From the NCBI GenBank assembly GCA_015060485.1, contig SUYI01000002.1:124001-188000 (forward strand): a stretch of DNA of 64,000 nt, read 5' to 3'. This stretch comes from Prevotella sp. (GTDB lineage Bacteria > Bacteroidota > Bacteroidia > Bacteroidales > Bacteroidaceae). The notes beneath the pieces are model-generated. The model did not search any database and was not told the origin of the DNA. It saw only the letters and a list, made by a program, of their open reading frames with translations. This document shows, piece after piece, positions 3,398-55,434 of the stretch. Numbering within the stretch: position 1 is the first letter of the stretch; the number at the start of each line of letters is the position of its first letter. The position numbers and the translations under genes are program-made.

Positions 3398-3931
3398 GTG
3401 AACATCTATTGGGAATCATTTAAGACCTTCTTTAAGATTGGCATATTCACCCTCGGGGGTGGATATGCCATGATTCCTTTGATAGAGGAAGAGGTGGTTA
3501 ACAAACACAAATGGGTGGATAAGGACGAGATGCTCGACCTGATAGCCATTGCCCAGAGCTGTCCTGGGGTCTTTGCCATTAATATTGCCACCTTTATCGG
3601 CTATAAGCTGAAAAAGGAGCGAGGTGCCATTGCTACCACTATGGGTACGGCACTTCCCTCGTTTCTGATTATTCTGCTGATAGCGATGTTCTTCCACCAG
3701 TTTGAAGACAATCGCATCGTTGCTGCTATCTTCAAAGGTATCCGCCCTGCAGTTGTTGCCCTCATCGCTGTACCTACCTTCAATCTAGGCAAACGGGCCC
3801 AGCTGAACAAATGGACGATATGGATTCCCATTGTGTCTGCCCTATTGATATGGCTATTGGGTGTTTCGCCCATTTGGATTATCATTGCTGCTGGTGTAGG
3901 CGGTTACATCTGGGGAGAGGTAATAAAGTAA
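3398..3931 (+). CDS. Chromate transporter (CHR) half protein 1
   Basis: FKIGIFTLGGGYAMIPLIEEE motif; tandem short CHR pair. Confidence 0.9.
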   Translation: MNIYWESFKTFFKIGIFTLGGGYAMIPLIEEEVVNKHKWVDKDEMLDLIAIAQSCPGVFAINIATFIGYKLKKERGAIATTMGTALPSFLIILLIAMFFHQFEDNRIVAAIFKGIRPAVVALIAVPTFNLGKRAQLNKWTIWIPIVSALLIWLLGVSPIWIIIAAGVGGYIWGEVIK

Positions 3932-3947
3932 AAAGGTAAGTGAAACG

Positions 3948-4526
3948 ATGATATTCTTCTGGTTATTCGTTACATTCTTCGAGATAGGCGTCTTTGGCTT
4001 TGGTGGGGGATACGGTATGCTCTCGCTGATTCAGCACGAAACTGTAGAGCATTGGCATTGGCTGTCGAGCAGTGAGTTTACGGATATTGTGGCTATTTCG
4101 CAGATGACCCCTGGTCCCATTGGTATCAACTCCGCCACCTATTGTGGATATACCGCTGTGAAGAATGCGGGATTCTCAATGCCAATGGCTGTGTTAGGAA
4201 GTGCTACTGCCACCTTTGCGTTGGTATTGCCTTCGCTCATACTCATGGTTCTTATCAGTAAGATGTTCATGAAGTATATGCATACCAGAACAGTCGAAAG
4301 CGTATTCAAGGCCCTGCGTCCTGCTGTTGTTGGTCTGTTGGCAGCTGCTACATTATTATTATGTACGCGCGAAAACTTCAGTACTCCCCAAGAAAACCTG
4401 TGGCAGTTCTGCATCAGCTGTTTCCTTTTCGCTGCTTCCTTTTATGGGGTCAAGGTAATGAAAATCAACCCCATCCACATGATACTTTTCAGCGCTGTGG
4501 CGGGGTTGGTATTGTTCTATGAGTAA
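3948..4526 (+). CDS. Chromate transporter (CHR) half protein 2
   Basis: FEIGVFGFGGGYGMLSLIQHE and MTPGPIGINSATY motifs. Confidence 0.9.
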   Translation: MIFFWLFVTFFEIGVFGFGGGYGMLSLIQHETVEHWHWLSSSEFTDIVAISQMTPGPIGINSATYCGYTAVKNAGFSMPMAVLGSATATFALVLPSLILMVLISKMFMKYMHTRTVESVFKALRPAVVGLLAAATLLLCTRENFSTPQENLWQFCISCFLFAASFYGVKVMKINPIHMILFSAVAGLVLFYE

Positions 4527-4529
4527 GCA

Positions 4530-4562
4530 AAAAACGCGGCCCATGAAAGGTCGCGCTTTTGT
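4530..4562. terminator. Bidirectional Rho-independent-type terminator
   Basis: AAAAACGCGGCC-loop-GGTCGCGCTTTTG between convergent genes. Confidence 0.7.
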
Positions 4563-4565
4563 TTG

Positions 4566-4946
4566 TTATTTGTGCTTCTTATAATAGTCAACAGCACGAC
4601 GGATGTTTTCCTGCATCGCCTTTGAAGTGAATGTGGCACCCGTCACGGCATCCACGTCCTCAACAGTGCCCTTCTTGACGTTCATGCCCTCGTAGCTGGG
4701 CAGCATCTGCTTTTTCACCTTGGCATTATACTTGGGACCGTCTTGGTTCTTCAGCACAACGACCTTTACAATCTTATTCTTTTTAATATGAACCTCAAGG
4801 GGTGTAGCACCAGCATATCCTTCCACGTCTTGAGCCAGCGTGGTGGTATTTACAATATAGGTGCCGTCCTGGGTTTTCGTCATTACGTTGTCTGCCTGTG
4901 CCGTCATTGCGAACACCAGCAGCATAGCTATTAAAAACTTCTTCAT
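4566..4946 (-). CDS. FMN-binding domain protein, secreted
   Basis: Signal peptide; DAVTGATFTS flavinylation-type motif. Confidence 0.8.
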   Translation of the reverse strand: MKKFLIAMLLVFAMTAQADNVMTKTQDGTYIVNTTTLAQDVEGYAGATPLEVHIKKNKIVKVVVLKNQDGPKYNAKVKKQMLPSYEGMNVKKGTVEDVDAVTGATFTSKAMQENIRRAVDYYKKHK

Positions 4947-5503
4947 TTTCCTAATGCAAATTTATATCCTAAAGTGATAGAGAACCAAGAGTGTCTGGCG
5001 GAACCAGGATTGTCAGCTTTGCTTGCGCCGAAATGATATCTGGCATCAACGACAAAATTCTGGTATTCATACGATGCACCAACGGGGAAAGAGAAATAAA
5101 CGCCATTCGCATCGTCATTGTTGCTATCGTCAACCTTTGCAGAGAGTTTGATACCAGGCTGTATACCAGCTTTAATGGCAAGTCCTGGATAAACATAGTA
5201 ATTGGCGAGAATGGGAATATTAAGGTAATCGTACTTTAAGGAAGCGTAATTTTCAGAATCTGAAGATTTCTCACCTTGCATAGAATAGAGCAGACCTGCA
5301 GATATGGAGAATTTTTTGGCCAATCCATATTCTCCCTCAACACCGGCAACAGCACCGATGCGTAGGCTGGCAGTTCTCATATTGGTCATTGTTGCAAGAT
5401 TAACACCAGCCATTGGCTTCAAGGTAATCTGCCCAACTTCATTCTGCGCAAACATACCGATGCTTGTAAGCATCATAGCTGCAATCATAAATAGTTTTCT
5501 CAT
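4943..5503 (-). CDS. Outer-membrane beta-barrel protein (PorT-like family)
   Basis: Signal peptide, GVNLATM, beta-strand pattern, terminal SFALGYKFALGK; paralog of 21988..22596. Confidence 0.75.
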   Translation of the reverse strand: MRKLFMIAAMMLTSIGMFAQNEVGQITLKPMAGVNLATMTNMRTASLRIGAVAGVEGEYGLAKKFSISAGLLYSMQGEKSSDSENYASLKYDYLNIPILANYYVYPGLAIKAGIQPGIKLSAKVDDSNNDDANGVYFSFPVGASYEYQNFVVDARYHFGASKADNPGSARHSWFSITLGYKFALGK

Positions 5504-5549
5504 ATTATTTTTGTTTTATTTTGATGAATATTCTTTGATGTCAGATAAA

Positions 5550-7601
5550 TCAATAGTTACCCAAGGCACTGATGCTCTGTGGCATCCAAACCTCCATATC
5601 GCCAGGTCCGCGATGGTTCCAGGCGTAGTAGGGAATCATGGTCAGTACGGCAGGACGCACGTGGGCATGTCCTATTTTATCTGTATCAAGCGCCTCACCG
5701 TCCACTTCAATGGCTGTGACGGTAAATGTCACGTCGCGCGTGCCATTGATGGTACGCTCGGCAGTACGGAAGCGAGGCTGGGCGGGCATCAGGAAGTTGA
5801 AGATGCTGAAGCGTTCGTTGTCGGCTCCCTCAGCACAATAGACCAGCGGGCCGCGTTCTACGGCAATGCGTCCGCGATCGTCCACTACGGCAGGGTGAGC
5901 CTTGATGGTGCGAACAGGCATGTCGAAATGGATGGTTACCACGTCGCCCTTCTTCCACTTGCGGTCGATGGCGAGGTAACCGTTTTCAAGTGCACCATTG
6001 ACAGGCTGGCCGTTTACCTTTATCGAGTAGCTGCCCAGCACATCGTCACTGAAGCTATAGAGACGCGAGGGAACAGGACGATCCGTTACCCATTCCGGTA
6101 TGCGTACCATAAGGGCAAACTGTTTCGCCAAGTTCTTCTTGATGGTAACAGTGATGTCGCCATCCCAGGGATATTGCGTAGCCTGTTCCAGCACGACGTC
6201 CTTGCCTGCTACCTGAATAGTAGCGGTATTGCCAGCAAACAGGTTTACAAACAATTTGCGGTCCTTGACAGCATACATATAGCCTGGGAACGAGGGTATG
6301 AAGCGGCAGAGGTTCGAGGGACAGCAGGCACAACCGAACCAAGGCTGACGCTCGACGGTGCCATCAGCGTTGAACTTATACTTGCCATCCGACGACAGCG
6401 GATTGGGATAGAAGAAACGTCCGCCGTCGACACTCATGCCACTGATGACACCGTTATACAGCGTACGCTCCATGCAGTCGATGTATTTGGCGTCGCCATG
6501 CAACAGGAACATACGATGGAAGAGATAAACCATCGAGATGGCTGCACATGTTTCGTTGTACGACGTCAGGTTGGGCAATTCGTAGTCAGCGCCAAAGGCT
6601 TCACCATTGTGACGGGCACCCACACCGCCTGTGATATAATACTTCTTGGAAACGATGTTGTCGTAAAGCGTGTCGATGGCTTTGATGTAAGCAGAATCGC
6701 CAGTCAGCGCAGCGACATCAGCCATACCGGCATACATATATCCGGCACGAACGGCATGTCCCCAGGCCTCAGTCAGTTCAATGGCGGGCTTGTCGCTCTG
6801 CGAATAGATGTTCTTGGTCTTCGTCTTGCCACGATAGTCGAGCAGGAACTTGGCCTCGTCCAGATACTTCTTTTCACCGGTGAGCACATAAAGGCGGGCC
6901 AGTGCCATCTCGGCAATCTGGTGACCGGGTGTCACACAAGCCTGTCCGGGATTGGGACCCACCTCGCGGATGACGCAGTCAGCATATCGCTTGGCAATGT
7001 TCAGGAACTTGTCTGAACCAGTAGCCTGATAGTGTGCGCAGGCAGCATCCACCATGTGTCCAAGGTTATAGAGCTCGTGGCTGAGCACTTCCTCTACCTC
7101 CCAGCGGTTCTTGCCCGACCAGTGGTGGGGATGCTCAGGATTGATGGTACGTGCGGTATAGAGGTAACCGTCGGGTTCCTGGGCAGCAGCAACGATGTCG
7201 AGTACCGAGTCGATATACTGCTTCAGTTTGGCATCAGGATAGGTCTGCAGCACATATGACGCGCCCTCGATGGTCTTGTACACATCCGTATCGTCGAACG
7301 AAAACCCCATGAACTTCGACACGTCCCACTTTGGAGTCTTCAGTCCTTCGTGGCCTGGATGTTGCAGGGTGTATGCCGCCATATTGAAATTCTCGTAACG
7401 ATGCTCACTCTCACATTTCGAGAAAGCCAGCGGGATAGTCACCTCGCGGGCTGCACGAATACGTTCTCCCCAGAATGAGCCGGGGGTCACCTTGACGGCA
7501 GTAAACGGAACTTGACTAATGGGATAGCCATTGGAAATAACCTGTGCGGTAAGGCCTTGCATAAGCATTAAACCCAATACAATGATGCTCAGTCGTTTCA
7601 T
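5550..7601 (-). CDS. GH127-type (DUF1680) beta-L-arabinofuranosidase, secreted
   Basis: CACCPSN motif, HYQATG, GGVGARHNGEAFG; start trimmed from 7634 to the signal-peptide Met. Confidence 0.9.
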   Translation of the reverse strand: MKRLSIIVLGLMLMQGLTAQVISNGYPISQVPFTAVKVTPGSFWGERIRAAREVTIPLAFSKCESEHRYENFNMAAYTLQHPGHEGLKTPKWDVSKFMGFSFDDTDVYKTIEGASYVLQTYPDAKLKQYIDSVLDIVAAAQEPDGYLYTARTINPEHPHHWSGKNRWEVEEVLSHELYNLGHMVDAACAHYQATGSDKFLNIAKRYADCVIREVGPNPGQACVTPGHQIAEMALARLYVLTGEKKYLDEAKFLLDYRGKTKTKNIYSQSDKPAIELTEAWGHAVRAGYMYAGMADVAALTGDSAYIKAIDTLYDNIVSKKYYITGGVGARHNGEAFGADYELPNLTSYNETCAAISMVYLFHRMFLLHGDAKYIDCMERTLYNGVISGMSVDGGRFFYPNPLSSDGKYKFNADGTVERQPWFGCACCPSNLCRFIPSFPGYMYAVKDRKLFVNLFAGNTATIQVAGKDVVLEQATQYPWDGDITVTIKKNLAKQFALMVRIPEWVTDRPVPSRLYSFSDDVLGSYSIKVNGQPVNGALENGYLAIDRKWKKGDVVTIHFDMPVRTIKAHPAVVDDRGRIAVERGPLVYCAEGADNERFSIFNFLMPAQPRFRTAERTINGTRDVTFTVTAIEVDGEALDTDKIGHAHVRPAVLTMIPYYAWNHRGPGDMEVWMPQSISALGNY

Positions 7602-7648
7602 TTTTTCTTCTTCGTTTTTGTTTTCAGTCGACAAAGGTACGCATTTAG

Positions 7649-7680
7649 TTACAAACCGCCAAGTTTTTCGTCTTAATTAT
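7649..7680 (+). promoter_or_regulatory. Shared upstream motif TTACAAA-N13-CGTCTTAAT
   Basis: ACAAA (7651) N13 CGTCTT (7669), 27 nt before ATG 7696; one of seven sites. Confidence 0.6.
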
Positions 7681-45292: not shown

Positions 45293-46744
45293 ATGGAAGA
45301 AAAAAACCAATATGTCCGTCAGGTGGCTGAGCAAAAATACGAGTTTGGCTTTACCACCGATGTACATACCGAAATCATACCTGTCGGACTGAACGAAGAT
45401 GTGGTCCGGCTCATCTCTGCTAAGAAGGGCGAACCGGAATGGATGCTCGAGTTCCGCCTGAAGGCGTTCCGTTACTGGAAGCAGCAGACGGAGCCCCGAT
45501 GGGGCCATGTGCATGTGCCTGAGATCGACTATCAGGCCATCTCGTACTATGCTGACCCGACAGCCCGTCCTGTGCCCAGCGCTTCTGCCGCCGGGATAGA
45601 CCCCGAACTGGAAAAGACCTTCGATAAGCTGGGCATTCCCCTCGAAGAGCGTCTGGCTCTTTCAGGCAACACCGCCGTCGATGCCATCATGGACTCGGTA
45701 AGCGTCAAGACCACCTTTAAGGAGAAGCTCCGCGAAAAGGGTGTCATCTTCTGCTCCATTGGCGAGGCCATCAAGGAGCATCCCGACTTGGTTCAAAAGT
45801 TCTTGGGCACCGTAGTGCCTTATCGCGACAATTACTTTGCTGCATTGAATAGCGCTGTGTTCAGCGACGGCTCGTTTGTATATATCCCAAAAGGTGTGCG
45901 CTGTCCGATGGAGCTTAGCTCTTATTTCCGCATCAATGCCCGCAATACGGGGCAGTTTGAGCGTACGCTGATTGTGGCGGACGACGATTCGTATGTCAGC
46001 TATCTCGAAGGCTGCACCGCCCCCATGCGCGACGAAAACCAGCTGCATGCGGCAATTGTCGAGATAATAGTAATGAATCGTGCCGAGGTGAAGTATTCTA
46101 CCGTACAGAACTGGTATCCTGGCGACGAGAACGGCAAGGGTGGTGTGCTGAACTTGGTAACCAAGCGTGGAGACTTGCGTGGTGAGGGCAGCAAACTCTC
46201 GTGGACGCAGGTGGAGACGGGCTCTGCTATCACGTGGAAATACCCCTCGTGCATTCTTCGTGGCGATAACAGTACGGCGGAATTCTATTCCGTCGCTGTT
46301 ACCAACAATTATCAGGAGGCCGACACGGGCACGAAGATGATTCATATCGGACGGAATACCAAGTCGACGATTATCTCGAAGGGTATCTCGGCTGGTCATT
46401 CTCAGAACAGCTATCGTGGTTTGGTGCGCGCGGCAGCAACCGCTGACAATGCCCGTAACTACTCGTCGTGCGACTCGCTGTTGCTGGGTTCCGACTGTGG
46501 CGCGCATACCTTCCCCTATATGGATGTGCATAACGACTCGGCCATCTTCGAACACGAGGCGACGACCTCGAAAATCTCTGAAGACCAGCTCTTCTATTGC
46601 AATCAGCGCGGCATCCCTACCGAACAGGCCGTCGGACTCATCGTCAACGGCTATGCCAAGGAGGTGTTGCAGAAACTGCCGATGGAGTTTGCCGTCGAGG
46701 CGCAGAAACTTCTCTCCGTCTCCCTCGAAGGCACGGTAGGATAA
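45293..46744 (+). CDS. sufB: Fe-S cluster assembly protein SufB
   Basis: [38 protein letters not shown]. Confidence 0.95.
45572..45595 (+). repeat. In-CDS hairpin element (degenerate), GTG CCCAGCGC TTCTG CCGCCGGG
   Basis: Encodes VPSASAAG in SufB; shares GCCCGTCCTGTGCCCAGCG with the 11515 copy. Confidence 0.65.
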
Positions 46745-46769
46745 GTAACTGTCAATTGAATATGAGTGC

Positions 46770-48485
46770 ATGAAACGATTTCCGCTGTTCTGCTGGCTGA
46801 TTTTCTGCTACCTATCGTTAGCAGTGGCATCAGGTGATTCCACAGACTCCTGTGCTGTGAGGAAACTGGAAGTCGAACGGCTGCCCGACCTGAATATCCC
46901 CCGCAATGCCCATAACATCCTTTGCGTGAATGGCGAGGTAACGGTGGTTGGTGGCCATACCAAGAGTTTCATTCCTACTGCGACGGCAGAATACTATAAG
47001 GATGGCGAGTGGCACCTGATGGAGACAGAATATCCGCACGACAATGGTATATGTGTGGTGCTGAAGTCGGGTAAGGTGCTTCTGGCAGGAGGTCATGCCG
47101 AGCCGATGGGCGTCGGTCAGACCTACCCTGTAGAGGAATACGACCCTGCGACGCATACCTTCAGAGGCTTCAGTTGTCTGAGCACCAAGCGCACATTGGC
47201 TGTTGGAGCAGAGCTGGACAGCGGCAGGGTCGTGGTGACAGGCAACTGGTATGCCAAAGACGGCATCGAACTGTTCGATGGTGACAGGGATTTCTCTCGT
47301 GTGAAAGGCGTTTCCGTCGGTCGTGCCACACCCTACCTTCTCCGTACTTCTGACGATAATGTCCTCATCTTGGGCAGCGGTGGCACACATGGTGAAGCAT
47401 TATTCTCCGACAAGGTGGATCGCCTAAAGGGCGACCCGCTGCAAGTTCCCCTGCTGCGGCAGTGGCAACCGCTATTCTATGAAGCACCTTTTTGTAGCAA
47501 TATAGGATTCATTGGCAACGAGGATGCTAACGACTATTCCTGGCTGGTGCCCGTGCAAGACAGGACGGTTGGCGACAGCACCGATTGGGTGTTATTCAAG
47601 CCGTTGGCTTTCCTTCATGTTCGCGACACCATCTTCTCGCTGCTGCCTACCACATGTCCTGCTCCCGTGAAGGGTCCTTATGGCCCGATTCATTATTACA
47701 GCCCCGTCATTGCCGACCGCCAGGCGCATCGTGGCTATATGCATGGCATCGACAAGGATAACCGCCATTATGTGCTCTGCGTGGAGTATGACAAGACGCC
47801 GGCTCCGCTGACGCTCTACTATACCGACCCGCTGCCGGAGGCTGGCTTTCCTGAGATAGTCCTCACCGACGATGGCAACCTGATGATTGTGGGTGGCATC
47901 ACCTATAACAAGCCCCTCAACGGCACGCTGCAGAACGACAACTTCTCGCCCTTATCCACCGTCTTTCTCTTGCGTGTTGGTAACAGTGATGTCGCAGAAT
48001 CATCCGATGGAGTCATTGGTAAATGGCTATGGGGCATTCTCGCTTTGGCAATTCTGGCGATAGCCATTGCTTTATTCCTGATTCGCAAGCGGCACAACCA
48101 CCAGACATCTGTCGTCGATGCACCAGACTCTGACACATCCGCTTCCAATCCGAACGAAGTCCTGATGCAGCGCATCAGCCGCCTGATGGAACAGCAACAA
48201 CTCTATCTCGACAGCGACCTGAAACTATCTGACGTAGCCGCTATGCTTGCCACCAACCGCAATGCCATCTCCAACTGCATCAACTCGCAGCACGGCTGCT
48301 CGTTCACCCAGTTCGTCAACACCTATCGTGTGGAATATGCCCAAAAACTGATGCGACAACAATCAGACATCAAAATCTCTGAGGTTTGGATGTCATCGGG
48401 ATTCTCCACCGAACGAACTTTTCTTAGAACCTTCAAGCAACAGACGGGCATGACTCCCAGCAACTGGAAATCCAAAATCGACTGA
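46770..48485 (+). CDS. Membrane-spanning regulator: Kelch-like beta-propeller sensor + TM + AraC-type HTH
   Basis: Signal peptide, Kelch-like repeats (VTVVGGHTKSF, VLLAGGHAEP), TM WLWGILALAILAIAIALFLI, C-terminal AraC HTH (SDVAAMLATNRNAISN...SSGFSTERTFLRTFKQQTGMTPSNWK). Confidence 0.85.
   Translation: MKRFPLFCWLIFCYLSLAVASGDSTDSCAVRKLEVERLPDLNIPRNAHNILCVNGEVTVVGGHTKSFIPTATAEYYKDGEWHLMETEYPHDNGICVVLKSGKVLLAGGHAEPMGVGQTYPVEEYDPATHTFRGFSCLSTKRTLAVGAELDSGRVVVTGNWYAKDGIELFDGDRDFSRVKGVSVGRATPYLLRTSDDNVLILGSGGTHGEALFSDKVDRLKGDPLQVPLLRQWQPLFYEAPFCSNIGFIGNEDANDYSWLVPVQDRTVGDSTDWVLFKPLAFLHVRDTIFSLLPTTCPAPVKGPYGPIHYYSPVIADRQAHRGYMHGIDKDNRHYVLCVEYDKTPAPLTLYYTDPLPEAGFPEIVLTDDGNLMIVGGITYNKPLNGTLQNDNFSPLSTVFLLRVGNSDVAESSDGVIGKWLWGILALAILAIAIALFLIRKRHNHQTSVVDAPDSDTSASNPNEVLMQRISRLMEQQQLYLDSDLKLSDVAAMLATNRNAISNCINSQHGCSFTQFVNTYRVEYAQKLMRQQSDIKISEVWMSSGFSTERTFLRTFKQQTGMTPSNWKSKID
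48470..48485. repeat. 16-bp direct repeat, left copy
   Basis: ATCCAAAATCGACTGA, identical at 49955..49970. Confidence 0.85.
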
Positions 48486-48497
48486 TAGCTTATATTC

Positions 48498-48580
48498 CAC
48501 AAACAACCGAACAAAATCATCACAAACAACCGAACAAAATCATCACAAACAACCGAACAAAATCATCACAAACAACCGAA
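48498..48580. repeat. 23-bp tandem repeat, 3 full copies + partial
   Basis: cacaaacaaccgaacaaaatcat x3 + cacaaacaaccgaa. Confidence 0.95.
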
Positions 48581-48594
48581 AAGTTTCCAAATTA

Positions 48595-48626
48595 TTTGCA
48601 TAATTCAATAATAATCAGTAACTTTG
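48595..48626 (+). promoter_or_regulatory. Bacteroidetes-type promoter
   Basis: TTTG (48595) N20 TAACTTTG (48619). Confidence 0.65.
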
Positions 48627-48654
48627 CCGTCAAATTGCAATTCATAGTTATAAG

Positions 48655-49932
48655 ATGAATATTGATTATAAGTCAAGAATAGCCGACAGCCTGCTTTCCC
48701 GTAAATTAGCAGGTAAGGGTGCCGTACTGATTGAAGGTCCTAAGTGGTGCGGTAAGACGACAACCGCCAAGCAGCAAGCTAAAAGCATACTTGATCTGGG
48801 AGACAGCGCTGTTTTGAAACAAAGTCGGCAGATGATGGACATCAGTCCTAAAACACTGTTACAAGGCAATACACCTCGTCTGATTGATGAATGGCAGATA
48901 ATACCACCTCTGTGGGACAGCATACGTGACGAGGTTGACAAACGGAGCGACTTCTCACAATTCATCCTGACGGGATCGTCGGTGCTCCCCCAGGCTGATG
49001 AGAGCATTCATAGTGGAACTGGTCGTTTCGCAAGAATCAGAATGCGCCCCATGACGCTGTTTGAGTCGGGCGATTCATCAGGAGAAGTTAGTCTTGGAGA
49101 ACTTTTCAAAGGAAACACGTTTGAACCAATCAAATGCAATACTGAACTCCGGGATATTGCCTATCTTACCTGTCGGGGAGGTTGGCCTATGGCAACATTT
49201 CTCAGTGGTGGCATTGCGCTGGATCAGGCATTCGACTACGTAGATTCTGTTGTTGAGCGTGATATTCAGAGGGTAGATGGGGTGAAACGAAGTGCTGAAC
49301 GCACCCGACTTCTTTTACGTTCTTATGCCAGGAACATTTCCCAACAGGTTTCATACGGAACTATCAAGGCTGATATGCTGTCGAATGATTCACAGACTCT
49401 CGACGAAGATACGGTGGCGGATTATATCAAGGCTCTTAAAAAATTATTCGTCATTGAAGACCTTGCAGCTTGGAATCCAAACCTTCGTAGCAAATCGGCA
49501 ATCCGTACCAGTGATACCCGACATTTTGTAGATCCAAGTATCGGGACAGCCTCGCTTGGACTTGGCCCTGATGACCTGATGAACGATTTGCTATCATTCG
49601 GTCTGTTTTTTGAGGATTTGGCAGTGCGCGACTTACGAGTCTTCGCCGAGACACTCGACGGCAAACTGTATCATTATCGCGACAGTTCTGGACTGGAGTG
49701 CGACACTGTGTTGCACCGCCGTAACGGCACTTATGCTTTGATAGAGGTTAAGTTAGGTGGTGAGAAGTTGATAGAGGAGGGAGCTGCCGCCCTGACGTCC
49801 TTGGCAGAGGCCATTGATACGACACGTATGCCGAGACCATCGTTTATGATGGTGCTCACAGCCGTTGGGCAATATGCATATCAGCGTCCAGATGGCGTAT
49901 TTGTCGTTCCCATCGGTTGTATAAAGGTATAA
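48655..49932 (+). CDS. AAA ATPase with DUF4143-type C-terminal domain
   Basis: IEGPKWCGKTTTAKQ (Walker A), FILTGSSVLP, C-terminal FEDLAVRDLRVFAE...YALIEVKLGG. Confidence 0.88.
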   Translation: MNIDYKSRIADSLLSRKLAGKGAVLIEGPKWCGKTTTAKQQAKSILDLGDSAVLKQSRQMMDISPKTLLQGNTPRLIDEWQIIPPLWDSIRDEVDKRSDFSQFILTGSSVLPQADESIHSGTGRFARIRMRPMTLFESGDSSGEVSLGELFKGNTFEPIKCNTELRDIAYLTCRGGWPMATFLSGGIALDQAFDYVDSVVERDIQRVDGVKRSAERTRLLLRSYARNISQQVSYGTIKADMLSNDSQTLDEDTVADYIKALKKLFVIEDLAAWNPNLRSKSAIRTSDTRHFVDPSIGTASLGLGPDDLMNDLLSFGLFFEDLAVRDLRVFAETLDGKLYHYRDSSGLECDTVLHRRNGTYALIEVKLGGEKLIEEGAAALTSLAEAIDTTRMPRPSFMMVLTAVGQYAYQRPDGVFVVPIGCIKV

Positions 49933-49954
49933 TAGAGTGGCAAAAAGCTGATTC

Positions 49955-49970
49955 ATCCAAAATCGACTGA
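49955..49970. repeat. 16-bp direct repeat, right copy
   Basis: ATCCAAAATCGACTGA. Confidence 0.85.
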
Positions 49971-50055
49971 CAAAACGTAAATTGTCGGTCGTTTTTGTTG
50001 TTTTGTCAGTTACCACTGCTTTCTTTTCCCTATCTTTGCACAAAAAACTAAAGAT

Positions 50056-50205
50056 ATGAAACAGACAATGAACAAGAAACGAAAGTATGAGCGGCCGCGG
50101 ACAACGGTCGTGGAACTGCAGCACAGAACGATGCTGCTGGCAGGAAGTGAAGTTAGTGCCAACCGCAATAGCTATGGTACTGCGACAGAAGATACGTGGA
50201 ACTAA
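50056..50205 (+). CDS. Short upstream ORF, 49 aa (not in the supplied track)
   Basis: MKQTMNKKRKYERPRTTVVELQHRTMLLAGSEVSANRNSYGTATEDTWN*, preceded by TATCTTTG. Confidence 0.55.
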   Translation: MKQTMNKKRKYERPRTTVVELQHRTMLLAGSEVSANRNSYGTATEDTWN

Positions 50206-50218
50206 GGAGAATTCGGAG

Positions 50219-52798
50219 ATGCAAAGGATTTTAAGCAAAACGGGCTGGCTGGTTGTGGCCGCAGCCCTCGTGATGGGATTCACTGCCTGTTCGAGCACAG
50301 AGGATGGCGCTATTGAGAACCCCCACCAGCCATTAGCGGTGCAGACCTACACCATAACCGTCGAGGCTTCGAAGAGTGATAGCGGAACCCGTGCACTCTC
50401 GCTCGACAACAAGACGCTCAATGCCACATGGGCGGAGGGCGAGGAAGTAACCGTATATAACGAGACAAAGAGTGAAACTCTCACGGGAACACTTATAGCC
50501 CAAGGCACAGGTGCCAATACCATACTGAAAGGCACCCTTACCGGTACCATCGAGAAGGATGACGTACTGACGCTGAAGTTCCTCAGCCCTACCTACGGTA
50601 CGCAGGACGGTACGCTCACGGGTTCGAATACGAGTATCGACAAGGTGTGCGACTATGCCGAGGCCACTGTTCACGTAGCCAATATTGATGGCAGTAACAT
50701 CACCATCACGGAATCGTCTGCAGACTTTCAGAACAAGCAGGCCATCGTGAAGTTCACGTTGAAGAACCATGGAGGCACAGCCATCAGCGCATCAAGACTG
50801 ACAGTCAATGACGGTACCAACAATTACATCGTTACTCCAACATCGGCAACCGATGAACTCTTTGTCGCTATACCGGCAACAAATACAGTGACCCTAACGG
50901 TAACGGACCCAACTTCCAAACCATACATCTATGAAAAGACAGGTGCAGGATTAGTAGCAGGCAAGTATTATGAGATAGGAGTGAAAATGTCGGTTTATCT
51001 CGACAACGCCACCACTAACGTAACGCTGGCAGACGGCGACGTGGTTGTGGGCGAACTTAAGAGCATAGTACAGATTAATATGGCTGATGACGCTACGGTA
51101 ACGCTAAACAACGTAACCATTAATGGTGTGTACCATGATACTTATTACAGGTGGGCGGGAATCAACTGTTTGGGAGATGCCACTATCATCCTCCAAGGTA
51201 CGAACGTCGTGAAGGGATTCAACTATAATTTCCCAGGTATATGTGTTCCTGAAAACCATACGCTCACCATTCAGGGTGACGGAGTGCTCAATGCGAGCAG
51301 CAACGGCTATGGAGCAGGCATCGGTGGCGGCTACAACATTAAATGCGGTAATATCAAGATTATGGGCGGCACCATCACGGCCATTGGTGGTACATACGCT
51401 GCCGGAATCGGTGGTGGATCCAGTGGTACTGATGGAAAATGTGGTAACATTGAAATCTGTGGAGGCACCATAAATGCCACTGGTGGCGAAGGTGCTGCCG
51501 GCATAGGCGCTGGAAGTAACTCACGTTGCGGTACCATTACTATTAGTGGCGGTAATATCACAGCCCAGGGCGGTCGCTATGCTGCAGGTATTGGCAGTAG
51601 TGCCGGTACAAGCACAAGCATAAGCGGTAATGTCGGCGTCTGTCAGGACATAACGATTACTGGCGGTACCATTGTTGCTACAGGTGGCGACGCTTCTGCC
51701 GGTATCGGCGGCGGTAAGGTTTGCGGAGACATTACCATCAGCGGCGCCAACATTACTGCGACGAAAGGCAGTGGGGCTCCCTATAGCATTGGGGCAGGCA
51801 ATGATGGATACTGTGGTACTGTGACGATAAATGGTGTAGAAGGTCCTGTTTCAACCAATCCATATACATTTTCCGTTACTGACCTTAGCGCGGCAGGAAA
51901 TGCTAATACTTACATTGTTTCATCGGCTGGCACATATAAGTTCGATGCTACAGTGAAGGGGAACGGAGGTCTTGATCCCCTGACAGGTACGACGGCAACT
52001 AAGATTGACAAGTCGAGCATTGCTGGCGTGAAAGTACTGTGGGAGGTGTATGACAAGGGCCGTGCCATCAAACACGACGGAACGAAGTACGACATCAGCT
52101 ACAACGATGGCTACGTCTATTTCTCTACACCGAATGAGTTCACAGAGGGCGATTGCTACGTAGCGGTCTATGATGCTGAAGATAACATCTTATGGAGCTG
52201 GCTTATCTGGGCGGCAGCTACCCCAAGCGAACAGGCTGTTGGCAGCGATAAGTTTATGAATTGTAACCTTGGATCAATCCAGGTTGCCTATTGTACACGT
52301 GGATTCCTATATGAATGGGGACGCAAAGATCCTTTCCCGTCGACAAAATATAACAATAATGAGCCTTATGACTACTATCCGGCCCGAATGACTTGCTATA
52401 GTTTTGTAACTTCATCGCAAAGTGTATCTTACGCCACCCAGCACCCCACAACATACATACCTGGAGCCTGGGTGACAGAGGATGATTACAGGACAGATCT
52501 CTGGAGTGACACTCAAAAGACCATCTATGATCCTTGCCCAGTAGGATGGAGAGTCCCAACCAGTTCCCAGATGTCATCATTCAAGAGTATAGTAGGATTG
52601 GGGAACTTGCCTGCTACTGGCTTTACAGGCGGAATCAATAGTGAAGGGGATTTCGGTTATGGGAATCCGGGTACTGGTTATTACTGGTCGAGTACAGGAG
52701 TTAATAGGAGTAATGCATTGGCTTCTTGCAACGATGGCCGTCTTAATCAAAGTTGGCCCGTTAATGAGGGTTATGCTATCCGCCCGGTGAAGGAATAA
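50219..52798 (+). CDS. Surface lipoprotein with fimbrillin-like N-terminal region, glycine-rich beta-repeats and C-terminal fibrobacter-type (FISUMP-like) domain
   Basis: Lipobox MGFTACSS; CGxIxIxGGTIxAxGGxxAAGIGGG repeats; DPCPVGWRVPTSSQ...YYWSST...GYAIRPVKE. Confidence 0.75.
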   Translation: MQRILSKTGWLVVAAALVMGFTACSSTEDGAIENPHQPLAVQTYTITVEASKSDSGTRALSLDNKTLNATWAEGEEVTVYNETKSETLTGTLIAQGTGANTILKGTLTGTIEKDDVLTLKFLSPTYGTQDGTLTGSNTSIDKVCDYAEATVHVANIDGSNITITESSADFQNKQAIVKFTLKNHGGTAISASRLTVNDGTNNYIVTPTSATDELFVAIPATNTVTLTVTDPTSKPYIYEKTGAGLVAGKYYEIGVKMSVYLDNATTNVTLADGDVVVGELKSIVQINMADDATVTLNNVTINGVYHDTYYRWAGINCLGDATIILQGTNVVKGFNYNFPGICVPENHTLTIQGDGVLNASSNGYGAGIGGGYNIKCGNIKIMGGTITAIGGTYAAGIGGGSSGTDGKCGNIEICGGTINATGGEGAAGIGAGSNSRCGTITISGGNITAQGGRYAAGIGSSAGTSTSISGNVGVCQDITITGGTIVATGGDASAGIGGGKVCGDITISGANITATKGSGAPYSIGAGNDGYCGTVTINGVEGPVSTNPYTFSVTDLSAAGNANTYIVSSAGTYKFDATVKGNGGLDPLTGTTATKIDKSSIAGVKVLWEVYDKGRAIKHDGTKYDISYNDGYVYFSTPNEFTEGDCYVAVYDAEDNILWSWLIWAAATPSEQAVGSDKFMNCNLGSIQVAYCTRGFLYEWGRKDPFPSTKYNNNEPYDYYPARMTCYSFVTSSQSVSYATQHPTTYIPGAWVTEDDYRTDLWSDTQKTIYDPCPVGWRVPTSSQMSSFKSIVGLGNLPATGFTGGINSEGDFGYGNPGTGYYWSSTGVNRSNALASCNDGRLNQSWPVNEGYAIRPVKE

Positions 52799-52873
52799 GC
52801 TTGATCAATGGGATATGAACGGTTCTTCTGGTGAATCTGGGCTCTCAGTGATCCACTTGGGAATCATGGGGAC

Positions 52874-53077
52874 TCTCCGACCTGAAGGTCTGAGTGTGGC
52901 TTCGCAATCTCGGTGATCCACTTTGATATTCAAGGCACTGTTCTGTTTTTCAGGGCGGTGCTTTTGTTTCCAGAATTTTTCTCCGTACAGAATTTTTATT
53001 TTAGCGGACGAAAATTTTGTTTCGCTGGGAGTATTGCCAAACGCTTCCTCGATACAAATAAGAGAAAGAAAGTGAGC
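52874..53077. repeat. Left copy of direct repeat flanking ATPase 2, split by about 68 bp of extra sequence
   Basis: Blocks 52874-52951 and 53020-53077 match 54487-54618. Confidence 0.9.
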
Positions 53078-53130
53078 AGAATGTCATGTCGCTCCTGCTT
53101 TTTTGAACTAACAGAGAAAGGAATAAGGGG

Positions 53131-54327
53131 TCAGTATATAAGACCAAAAAGCCAGAGGGGTATTTTGTTGCCGTAGCCGGTCTCGATGTTGGCAGCGACA
53201 ACGTAGCTGTCGGGGAGGTCGGCAATCTGTGTAAAGCCCTTTTTGCGGCCTCCGACCTCGAAGAGATACTTCTCGTCCACCTGCAAGTCACCCTGGGGGG
53301 CATGATGAATGGTATGGTTAAAGGACATCATGGAGGAGAAGAAAGACTCGCGGGCGGTGCCTTCGTCAGCACTGGAACCGAGGGCGTGCATGAGGTTGGT
53401 GTTGTTGAGTAGTATCTTGTCGGGCTTTCCTATTGCTTTGAGACCTTTGCCCTGGGCATGGAGTTGACGGATGAGGGCTGCGCGCTCGAGAAGGGAGAGA
53501 AGGTGTATGAGCTGATTGCGGGTGGTGGAGAGGTTGGTGCACATGTTGGCAATGTTGGGCGTGAAGGGTGCTAACTGTGCAAGGATCATGAGCAGTCGCT
53601 TGGCTTTCTGGAGTGTCTCGTACTCAATGTTTTCGACTGCGGGGATGTCGTTCTCGATGATGGTGGAGACGACTTGCTGGAGGCGCTCGTAGAAACTTTC
53701 GTCTGAGGCTGTCTCAAGGAAGAAGGGGTAGTAGCCGGTCTTGAGGTACTGCTCGAAGTGGGGCAGTGGCTTGAAGTCGCGGGTGATGCCGGAGGCGAGC
53801 TGCATGTGAGAGGTGAGGATGTCGGTGAGAGAGAGTACGGGCAGGTGGGCGGCTCCGGTGATGTCAAGGTACTCGCGGAAGGAGAGTCCGTGGAGGGTGT
53901 ACATGCGGAGGCGTCTGGAGAGGTCGCCCTCAGCATTGTCGATTTCCAGGAGTGAGGAACCGGTGAAGACGATGTGGAGTTTGGGGTAGTCGTCGTATAG
54001 GTTCTTGATGGTGCGCACCCAACCTTGGTATTTGTGAACTTCGTCGAGGAATAGGTGGGTGACGCCGTGGGTGTATAGGTATTCGGCGAGTTCGGGGAGA
54101 GAATGAGTGGCGAACCAGATGTTGTCGAGTGAGGCGTAGAAAGCACTGGTGCGGTCTGGGAAGGTAAGGAGGATGTGCTGTAGGAGCATAGTGGTCTTGC
54201 CGACTCCCTTGGCACCCTTAATACCTATAAGGCGTTCGCTCCAGTCGATAGAGGCGTAGAGGTAGCGAAGGTAATGGGTCTGGGTTTCTTCCAAGCGGCG
54301 ATTGTAGGCGCGAAATAATGTTTCCAT
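53131..54327 (-). CDS. AAA ATPase with DUF4143-type C-terminal domain
   Basis: IGIKGAKGVGKTTMLLQH (Walker A), THLFLDEVHKY, LHIVFTGSSLLEI. Confidence 0.9.
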   Translation of the reverse strand: METLFRAYNRRLEETQTHYLRYLYASIDWSERLIGIKGAKGVGKTTMLLQHILLTFPDRTSAFYASLDNIWFATHSLPELAEYLYTHGVTHLFLDEVHKYQGWVRTIKNLYDDYPKLHIVFTGSSLLEIDNAEGDLSRRLRMYTLHGLSFREYLDITGAAHLPVLSLTDILTSHMQLASGITRDFKPLPHFEQYLKTGYYPFFLETASDESFYERLQQVVSTIIENDIPAVENIEYETLQKAKRLLMILAQLAPFTPNIANMCTNLSTTRNQLIHLLSLLERAALIRQLHAQGKGLKAIGKPDKILLNNTNLMHALGSSADEGTARESFFSSMMSFNHTIHHAPQGDLQVDEKYLFEVGGRKKGFTQIADLPDSYVVAANIETGYGNKIPLWLFGLIY

Positions 54328-54486
54328 ATACGTATCTTTATTCTAAATTCACGCTGCAAAGATACTAAATATTTCTTTATGGAGAAAGAAAACGCAGGAA
54401 AAAGTTTCTTTGAAAGGATGGAAATTAAAAAGTATTGTCACACGAGGGTCAGTGAATTGTGGGGGCTGAATCGTGGGGAATGCGGT

Positions 54487-54618
54487 TCTCCGACCTGAAT
54501 GTCTGAGTATGGCTTCGCAATCTCGGTGGTCCACTTTGACATTCAAGGCACTACTCTGTTTTTCGCTGGGAGTATTGCCAAACGCTTCCTCGATACAAAT
54601 AAGAGAAAGAAAGTGAGC
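54487..54618. repeat. Right copy of direct repeat flanking ATPase 2
   Basis: Includes GCTGGGAGTATTGCCAAACGCTTCCTCGATACAAATAAGAGAAAGAAAGTGAGC, identical to the left copy. Confidence 0.9.
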
Positions 54619-54624
54619 GGACCG

Positions 54625-54656
54625 TTTGGTTGGCTCGTTTTTTATTCGTAACTTTG
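54625..54656 (+). promoter_or_regulatory. Bacteroidetes-type promoter of sufCD
   Basis: TTTG (54625) N20 TAACTTTG (54649). Confidence 0.65.
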
Positions 54657-54678
54657 CAGCCCAAAGGTTATAAGCATT

Positions 54679-55434
54679 ATGTTAGAAGTCAAAAACTTAC
54701 ACGCCAAGATCGGCGACAAGGAGATATTGAAAGGCATCGACCTCGTGATTAACGACGGTGAGACGCATGCCATCATGGGGCCCAACGGCTCGGGCAAGTC
54801 GACGCTGAGTGCCGTGCTCGTGGGTAATCCGCTCTACGAGGTGACGGAGGGCGAGGCATGGTTCAACGGCAAGAACCTGCTGGAGATGAAGCCGGAGGAC
54901 AGAGCGCACGAGGGATTGTTCCTGTCGTTCCAGTATCCTGTAGAGATTCCGGGTGTGTCGATGACCAACTTCATGAAGGCGGCCATCAACGAGAAGCGCA
55001 AGTATCAGGGCTTGGAGCCGATGAACGCCGCTGAGTTCCTGAAGCTGCAGCGCGAGAAGCGCAAGATTGTGGAGCTTGACTCCAAACTGGCCAACCGCTC
55101 GGTGAACGAAGGCTTCAGCGGTGGCGAGAAGAAGCGTAACGAGATTTTCCAGATGGCCATGTTGGAACCGAAGTTGAGTATTCTCGACGAGACGGACTCT
55201 GGTCTCGACGTTGACGCTATGCGCATTGTGGCCGAGGGTGTCAACAAACTCCAGACGCCTGAGACCTCGTGCATCGTCATCACCCACTACGACCGTCTGC
55301 TGGAGATGATCCGTCCCCAGTTCGTCCACGTACTCTATAAAGGCCGTATCGTCAAGACGGGCGGTCCCGAACTGGCCAAGCAGATTCAGGAGCACGGCTA
55401 CGACTGGATTAAGGAAGAAATCGGAGAAGAGTGA
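54679..55434 (+). CDS. sufC: Fe-S assembly ATPase SufC
   Basis: GPNGSGKSTLSAVLVG, FSGGEKKRNEI, DETDSGLD. Confidence 0.96.
   Translation: MLEVKNLHAKIGDKEILKGIDLVINDGETHAIMGPNGSGKSTLSAVLVGNPLYEVTEGEAWFNGKNLLEMKPEDRAHEGLFLSFQYPVEIPGVSMTNFMKAAINEKRKYQGLEPMNAAEFLKLQREKRKIVELDSKLANRSVNEGFSGGEKKRNEIFQMAMLEPKLSILDETDSGLDVDAMRIVAEGVNKLQTPETSCIVITHYDRLLEMIRPQFVHVLYKGRIVKTGGPELAKQIQEHGYDWIKEEIGEE

Follow-up and report, generated by a model that had tools for sequence, protein, structure and literature searches.

How a single ATPase gene came to lie between two copies of its neighbour's end is the question raised by the 64,000-nucleotide stretch of Prevotella DNA analysed here (the window). An earlier, sequence-only reading had described the last 16 bp of a Kelch-AraC regulator gene as recurring behind the ATPase gene, with only 23-bp tandem repeats, a promoter and the ATPase in the intervening 1.47 kb, and had taken the arrangement for a one-gene cassette, devoid of a recombinase, that was inserted with target duplication. 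The duplication turned out to be exact at both positions (Table 1); the copies of ATCCAAAATCGACTGA are identical, and a search of the whole genome returned these two and no others. The description of the contents also held: a perfect array, a promoter of the Bacteroidetes type and one ATPase gene were found. The ATPase gene stands alone between the repeats, with no gene for a recombinase or integrase beside it, which sets the locus apart from integrase-type integrative elements. Terminal inverted repeats at the unit ends and a transposase domain in its single ORF, the marks of insertion sequences and DDE transposons, are likewise absent.

Table 1. Positions of the proposed insert, its target and the second ATPase in the window
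Feature	Position	Strand	Remark
Kelch-AraC regulator gene	46770..48485	+	3' end is the proposed target
Left 16-bp copy of the target duplication, ATCCAAAATCGACTGA	48470..48485	+	Final codons and stop of the Kelch-AraC gene (TGA included)
Putative inserted unit	48486..49954	+	1469 bp between the repeat copies
23-bp tandem array	48498..48580	+	3.6 perfect copies, unit CACAAACAACCGAACAAAATCAT; left end of the putative mobile unit
Promoter	48595..48626	+	-33 TTTG (48595-48598), -7 TAACTTTG (48619-48626); 14 nt past the last array core; spacing conserved across homologues
AAA_14-DUF4143 ATPase	48655..49932	+	425 aa; PD-(D/E)XK-like C-terminus; PDC-S01 candidate
Right 16-bp copy of the target duplication	49955..49970	+	Runs on into the operator-like inverted repeat and the next gene's promoter
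Operator-like inverted repeat	49958..50010	+	Whole at the right copy alone; in relatives, directly behind the Kelch-AraC stop codon or overlapping it
Left target repeat of the second ATPase	52874..53080	.	52874-52951 and 53020-53080, 92% and 98% identical to the right copy
Second PDC-S01/AAA_14 ATPase	53131..54327	-	Bracketed by direct repeats
Right target repeat of the second ATPase	54487..54621	.	Adjoins the sufC promoter

The proposed insert and its target

Exact repeats of at least 16 bp at a spacing of 300-2500 bp occur in the 64-kb window only around its two DUF4143-type ATPases, at 48470/49955, 52897/54510 (19 bp) and 53020/54561 (58 bp). The direct repeat of the second ATPase is long and slightly diverged. 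Both ATPases, together with the Kelch-AraC gene and a beta-helix protein, occupy a gap of 8 kb between sufB and sufC in the region 45293-54679; the two suf genes are adjacent in several Prevotella, and the gap is variable across the genus. The operator-like repeat is separated from the gene of the beta-helix protein by a small ORF (50057-50206, MKQTMNKKRKYERPRTTVVELQHRTMLLAG...).

Prevotella has a multicopy family of Kelch-AraC regulators, and the stop codon of the gene often falls in the first half-site of an inverted repeat beside a downstream promoter. Many relatives carry an inverted repeat of the type AAAATCGACTNACAA...TTGTNAGTCGATTTT after the gene, and at four loci (L024, L038, L041 and L042) its left half-site includes the stop codon. 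In the window, the gene is ended only by the left copy of the 16-mer and the inverted repeat is completed only by the right copy. Removal of the insert would rebuild the layout typical of the family, with the Kelch-AraC stop inside the downstream operator half-site, which is indirect evidence for an insertion. The join that the sequence-only reading had predicted for an empty site, ...GGAAATCCAAAATCGACTGACAAAACGTAAATTG..., restores the same layout; the join itself was not recovered, as the 16-mer was absent from all 149 other Prevotella genomes searched and the joined flanks gave no spanning match in 399. The sufB-sufC neighbourhoods of 29 relatives had unrelated contents, and the empty site of the window was not found among them. 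The Kelch-AraC island is specific to its lineage and shared by no relative examined, hence an orthologous empty site was not found.

Array, promoter and ATPase

The letters of the array unit vary between lineages and the period of 23 bp is constant. When upstream regions were scanned for periods from 15 to 59, the best period was 23 (or 46) in 71 of 72 homologues versus 15 of 297 other genes. The distance from the last array core to the -33 TTTG is 13-15 nt in 45 of 68 sequences, and TTTG and TAnnTTTG are 24 nt apart in 38; as judged from these spacings, the array is phased to the promoter. A best period of 23 was also found for plasmid homologues of 27-61% identity from Bacteroides, Collinsella (Actinomycetota), Lentilactobacillus (Bacillota), Prosthecochloris (Chlorobiota) and Actinomyces, some of which have merely two or three array units. 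Four units about 23 bp apart were seen by eye upstream of a Mycobacterium homologue, the repeats of a Pseudomonas homologue measure 22 bp, and upstream of a Thermus homologue no repeats were seen.

Solo 23-bp arrays lacking the ATPase gene occur at ten loci (L215, L220, L224, L226, L229, L230, L232, L236, L237 and L238), and some of them end just past the -33 box and look like remnants. The idea that the solo arrays of Prevotella form a separate system was rejected, as they look like decayed units with differing breakpoints; they show that units turn over.

The encoded protein matches DUF4143 (106.8 bits) and AAA_14 (48 bits) of Pfam, both above the gathering score, and the PADLOC profile PDLC04790 for PDC-S01 over the full protein (E 7e-58, residues 4-420). 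PDC-S01 profile matches were obtained for both ATPases of the window (E 7e-58 and 1e-24). Among 43 homologues, no variation occurs in Walker A, Walker B or the PD-(D/E)XK residues D350, E364 and K366. The AlphaFold model is of moderate confidence (pLDDT 77, C-terminal domain mostly >85), and its Foldseek matches, weak and over the whole chain, are to the CARF-nucleases Cdn1/Card1, an archaeal AAA+ ATPase, clamp loaders and restriction enzymes; short of proof, they are consistent with an ATPase plus nuclease fold. PMC12988326 ranks PDC-S01 as the fourth commonest prokaryotic defence candidate and describes validation as pending for most PDCs, and PMC13356809 names PDC-S01 as the most frequent individual defence locus in rumen genomes.

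Homologous loci

The comparison drew on 80 homologous loci of 61-84% identity, mostly from rumen and gut Bacteroidales and for the most part derived from metagenome-assembled genomes, and flanking repeats were sought by local alignment of the 300 bp upstream of the array with the 300 bp downstream of the stop codon (cut-off score at least 15). The cut-off was reached at 25 of 75 loci, or 23 of 73 after removal of L105 and L109, which were contig-edge artefacts. Mismatched pairs of upstream and downstream flanks reached a score of at least 15 in 0.2% of cases and a score of 16 in 0.16%. Among control genes, flanking repeats were present in 10 of 256 (4%), and the top control matches listed include the second ATPase of the window and two further ATPases of related families; the difference between homologues and controls, with the second ATPase of the window omitted from the latter, is significant by Fisher's exact test (p 3e-10). 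A more divergent set, in which some loci are duplicated, reached the cut-off at 7 of 55 loci, and complete plasmids of Pseudomonas and Sphingomonas have long flanking repeats (scores 64 and 54 with 600-bp flanks). Each locus has repeats of its own, in sequence as well as in length, and two-thirds of the homologues have no flanking repeat detectable by this test. The idea that all DUF4143-type genes of the same genome have strong flanking repeats was rejected: among those checked, only the two of the window showed convincing repeats close to the gene. A general preference for 3' gene ends was rejected, with 62 of 114 facing ends matching the baseline mix.

Sequences from before the insertion are preserved at two other loci. 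The isolate Prevotella sp. tf2-5 (L098) has the arrangement A-B-[unit, 3830-5393]-B-C-[second PDC-S01 ATPase]-A-B-C, where B is ATTGAAATAATAGGACAATC, a 20-bp duplication identical at either end of the unit. When the left A-B-C is put together by leaving out the unit, its alignment with the intact right A-B-C continues across the junction. At L095, a gene end is present in two copies of 145 bp with a PDC-S27 ATPase between them; L096, from another genome, is the corresponding empty site, with no PDC-S27 ATPase and an intact reading frame straight through. An empty allele with a single copy of the target is at hand for tf2-5 and for L095/L096, where target-duplicating insertion is demonstrated most clearly; none was found for the window's own site. 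Joined junctions of the other loci gave strong matches, besides the source genome, only in the amidase gene of L100, where the left flank is missing.

Pairs of loci whose units are at least 86% identical mostly share only the stretch that begins with the array and ends 0-60 bp beyond the stop codon, with no further homology of more than 120 bp within the flanks compared. Some pairs (e.g., L116/L118/L119 and L140/L143) have short flanks in common and may be orthologous sites. One genome (G058) has two copies that lie in different contexts and match at 99.6% identity over exactly 1391 bp, and one of them brings along 22 bp of the gene that flanks the other; since the moved copy carries part of its old flank, the ends of the unit are imprecise. 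A 187-bp repeat at copy A of this genome was not counted as a clean duplication, as it is about 95% identical against 99.6% for the copies and possibly represents paralogous genes. In a different subfamily, a block of 1361 bp is common to an Agrobacterium pAt and a Rhizobium pTi plasmid, and the block common to two Sphingomonas plasmids stops exactly at the stop codon. Homologues are present on plasmids and on phage-labelled contigs. Array-to-stop units, to judge by these shared edges, move between unrelated sites.

At one further locus (L132), a PDC-S01 ATPase and a HipA-type toxin gene are set apart by three copies of one target (3572-3675, 5498-5600 and 7507-7659), a layout which suggests that a toxin-antitoxin module may have been inserted by the same mode. 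On two related Collinsella plasmids (L328 and L329), different DUF4143 ATPases follow the same helix-turn-helix gene, so that one site was seemingly occupied by different units.

Since relatives in other genomes bear the same marks, one of the most common candidate phage-defence genes appears to spread as a one-gene mobile unit. The data support the view of the window insert as one case of a wider pattern in which a very common defence candidate, a phased array with a period of 23 bp and target-duplicating insertion go together.

Proposed mode of insertion and known systems

The proposal of a one-gene cassette thus gains support from the duplication and the anatomy of the unit, both of which recur at homologues, and from the pre-insertion sequences kept at two other loci. 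The 1469-bp insert is probably a mobile unit of one gene (array, promoter and AAA+ ATPase-PD-(D/E)XK gene of PDC-S01) that was inserted with target duplication, and it is best read as a selfish unit of a single gene that moves by 'insertion with long target duplication', in which the protein is a candidate for the driving role. Several observations count against a mobile unit: terminal inverted repeats and a fixed target length are lacking, the empty site of the window was not found in 399 Prevotella genomes, two-thirds of the homologues and most other DUF4143 genes of this genome show no flanking repeat, the ends are imprecise, and most loci come from metagenome-assembled genomes. It is very improbable that the right copy is just an operator half-site that resembles the gene end by chance or through paralogous regulatory repeats: the 16-mer does overlap a half-site used by the Kelch-AraC family, but gene end and half-site are one overlapping sequence at the four loci named above, so that a single copy would be expected before insertion, and flanking repeats recur at other loci. 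A remnant of a larger mobile element (an insertion sequence, integrative element or satellite), with the 16-bp repeat as its attachment site, would account for a repeat at a gene's 3' end, which resembles integrase attachment sites, and for homologues on plasmids and phage-labelled contigs. Such an origin is improbable, however, given that the unit has neither integrase nor transposase, that the repeat differs in sequence and length from locus to locus and that the array-to-stop unit is reproducible in unrelated flanks.

Two sub-versions of the mobile-unit reading differ in who performs the insertion. The gene may be a passive selfish passenger of illegitimate recombination by the host (template switching or end joining at staggered breaks, as has been suggested for restriction-modification genes), with the array as a transcriptional operator only, a possibility that we rate seriously and yet below even. 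Variable duplication lengths, imprecise ends, the phasing of the array to the promoter, the same target copied around the HipA gene of L132, the similar insertion of PDC-S27 and the precedent of restriction-modification genes (PMC3031569 and PMC1643837) all agree with it, whereas random capture should often bring neighbours along and most pairs have their edges at the array (left) and the stop codon (right); the retention of period 23 across phyla also speaks against it. Tentatively, the unit may instead be self-mobile, its AAA+-PD-(D/E)XK protein recognising its own 23-bp array, nicking the target at variable spacing and driving insertion. This would fit the invariant ATPase and nuclease motifs, the discrete unit copied within one genome and an array conserved in period and not in sequence, but defined ends are absent and the catalytic step would be common to unrelated gene types at the same sites. 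Discrete edges and invariant catalytic residues would thus favour self-mobility, and the like treatment of PDC-S27 and of the HipA-type gene would favour a shared or host mechanism. With a HipA-type gene between copies of the same target and PDC-S27 inserting alike, the duplicating step need not be catalysed by the PDC-S01 protein.

In the mechanism proposed for the mobile unit, it would insert at the 3' end of the Kelch-AraC gene and duplicate 16 bp of the target, and because of this duplication the gene would keep its end and the downstream operator would remain whole. The array, phased to the promoter, is predicted to bind the unit's own protein for autoregulation and perhaps for recognition. 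Less certainly, insertion may proceed from staggered nicks or template switching, whose variable spacing would yield duplications of about 15-150 bp; the driving agent may be either the encoded ATPase-nuclease or the host's repair machinery, which would then act on a selfish gene. The broader notion that PDC-S01 genes are autonomous, primarily selfish one-gene mobile elements across bacterial phyla, whose protein would recognise the rapidly changing 23-bp array of its own promoter and bring about its own insertion with variable target duplication, so that a leading defence candidate would be chiefly a selfish element, is likewise tentative.

Travel of single genes with target duplication would be another reason for the presence of PDC-S01 genes in variable islands, and it raises the question of defence versus selfish spread. 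From an array whose period is fixed across phyla and whose sequence is free, a specific recognition between protein and DNA is predicted, which is open to direct test. A search of the open literature yielded no account of the 23-bp array or of movement of PDC-S01 genes.

Plasmid iterons, which accompany Rep proteins, are likewise direct repeats of about two helical turns beside the gene of a DNA-acting protein. The array of the window differs from them in being chromosomal and phased to a promoter, with no replication function seen. Target duplication is shared with insertion sequences and DDE transposons, whereas the unit has no terminal inverted repeats, fixed duplication length or recognisable transposase. 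In the accessible text of PMC12988326 and PMC13356809, PDC-S01 and PDC-S27 (PADLOC) are likewise ATPases fused to PD-(D/E)XK and are treated as defence genes; that text mentions neither a repeat array nor a target duplication. The closest likeness is to restriction-modification genes of Helicobacter pylori, for which 'insertion with long target duplication' was described (Nobusato et al. 2000, as presented in PMC3031569 and PMC1643837). That mode also involves a small unit without a recombinase and long target repeats of variable length, and its empty sites in relatives have their counterparts here in tf2-5 and L095/L096. In the same way, direct repeats of variable length bracket the present unit (16 bp in the window, about 15-150 bp at homologues), which differs from the H. 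pylori case in carrying a single ATPase-nuclease gene with a 23-bp array and not a restriction-modification pair, and in its occurrence in other bacterial groups. A mode of insertion known from restriction-modification genes would then apply to the movement of genes more widely.
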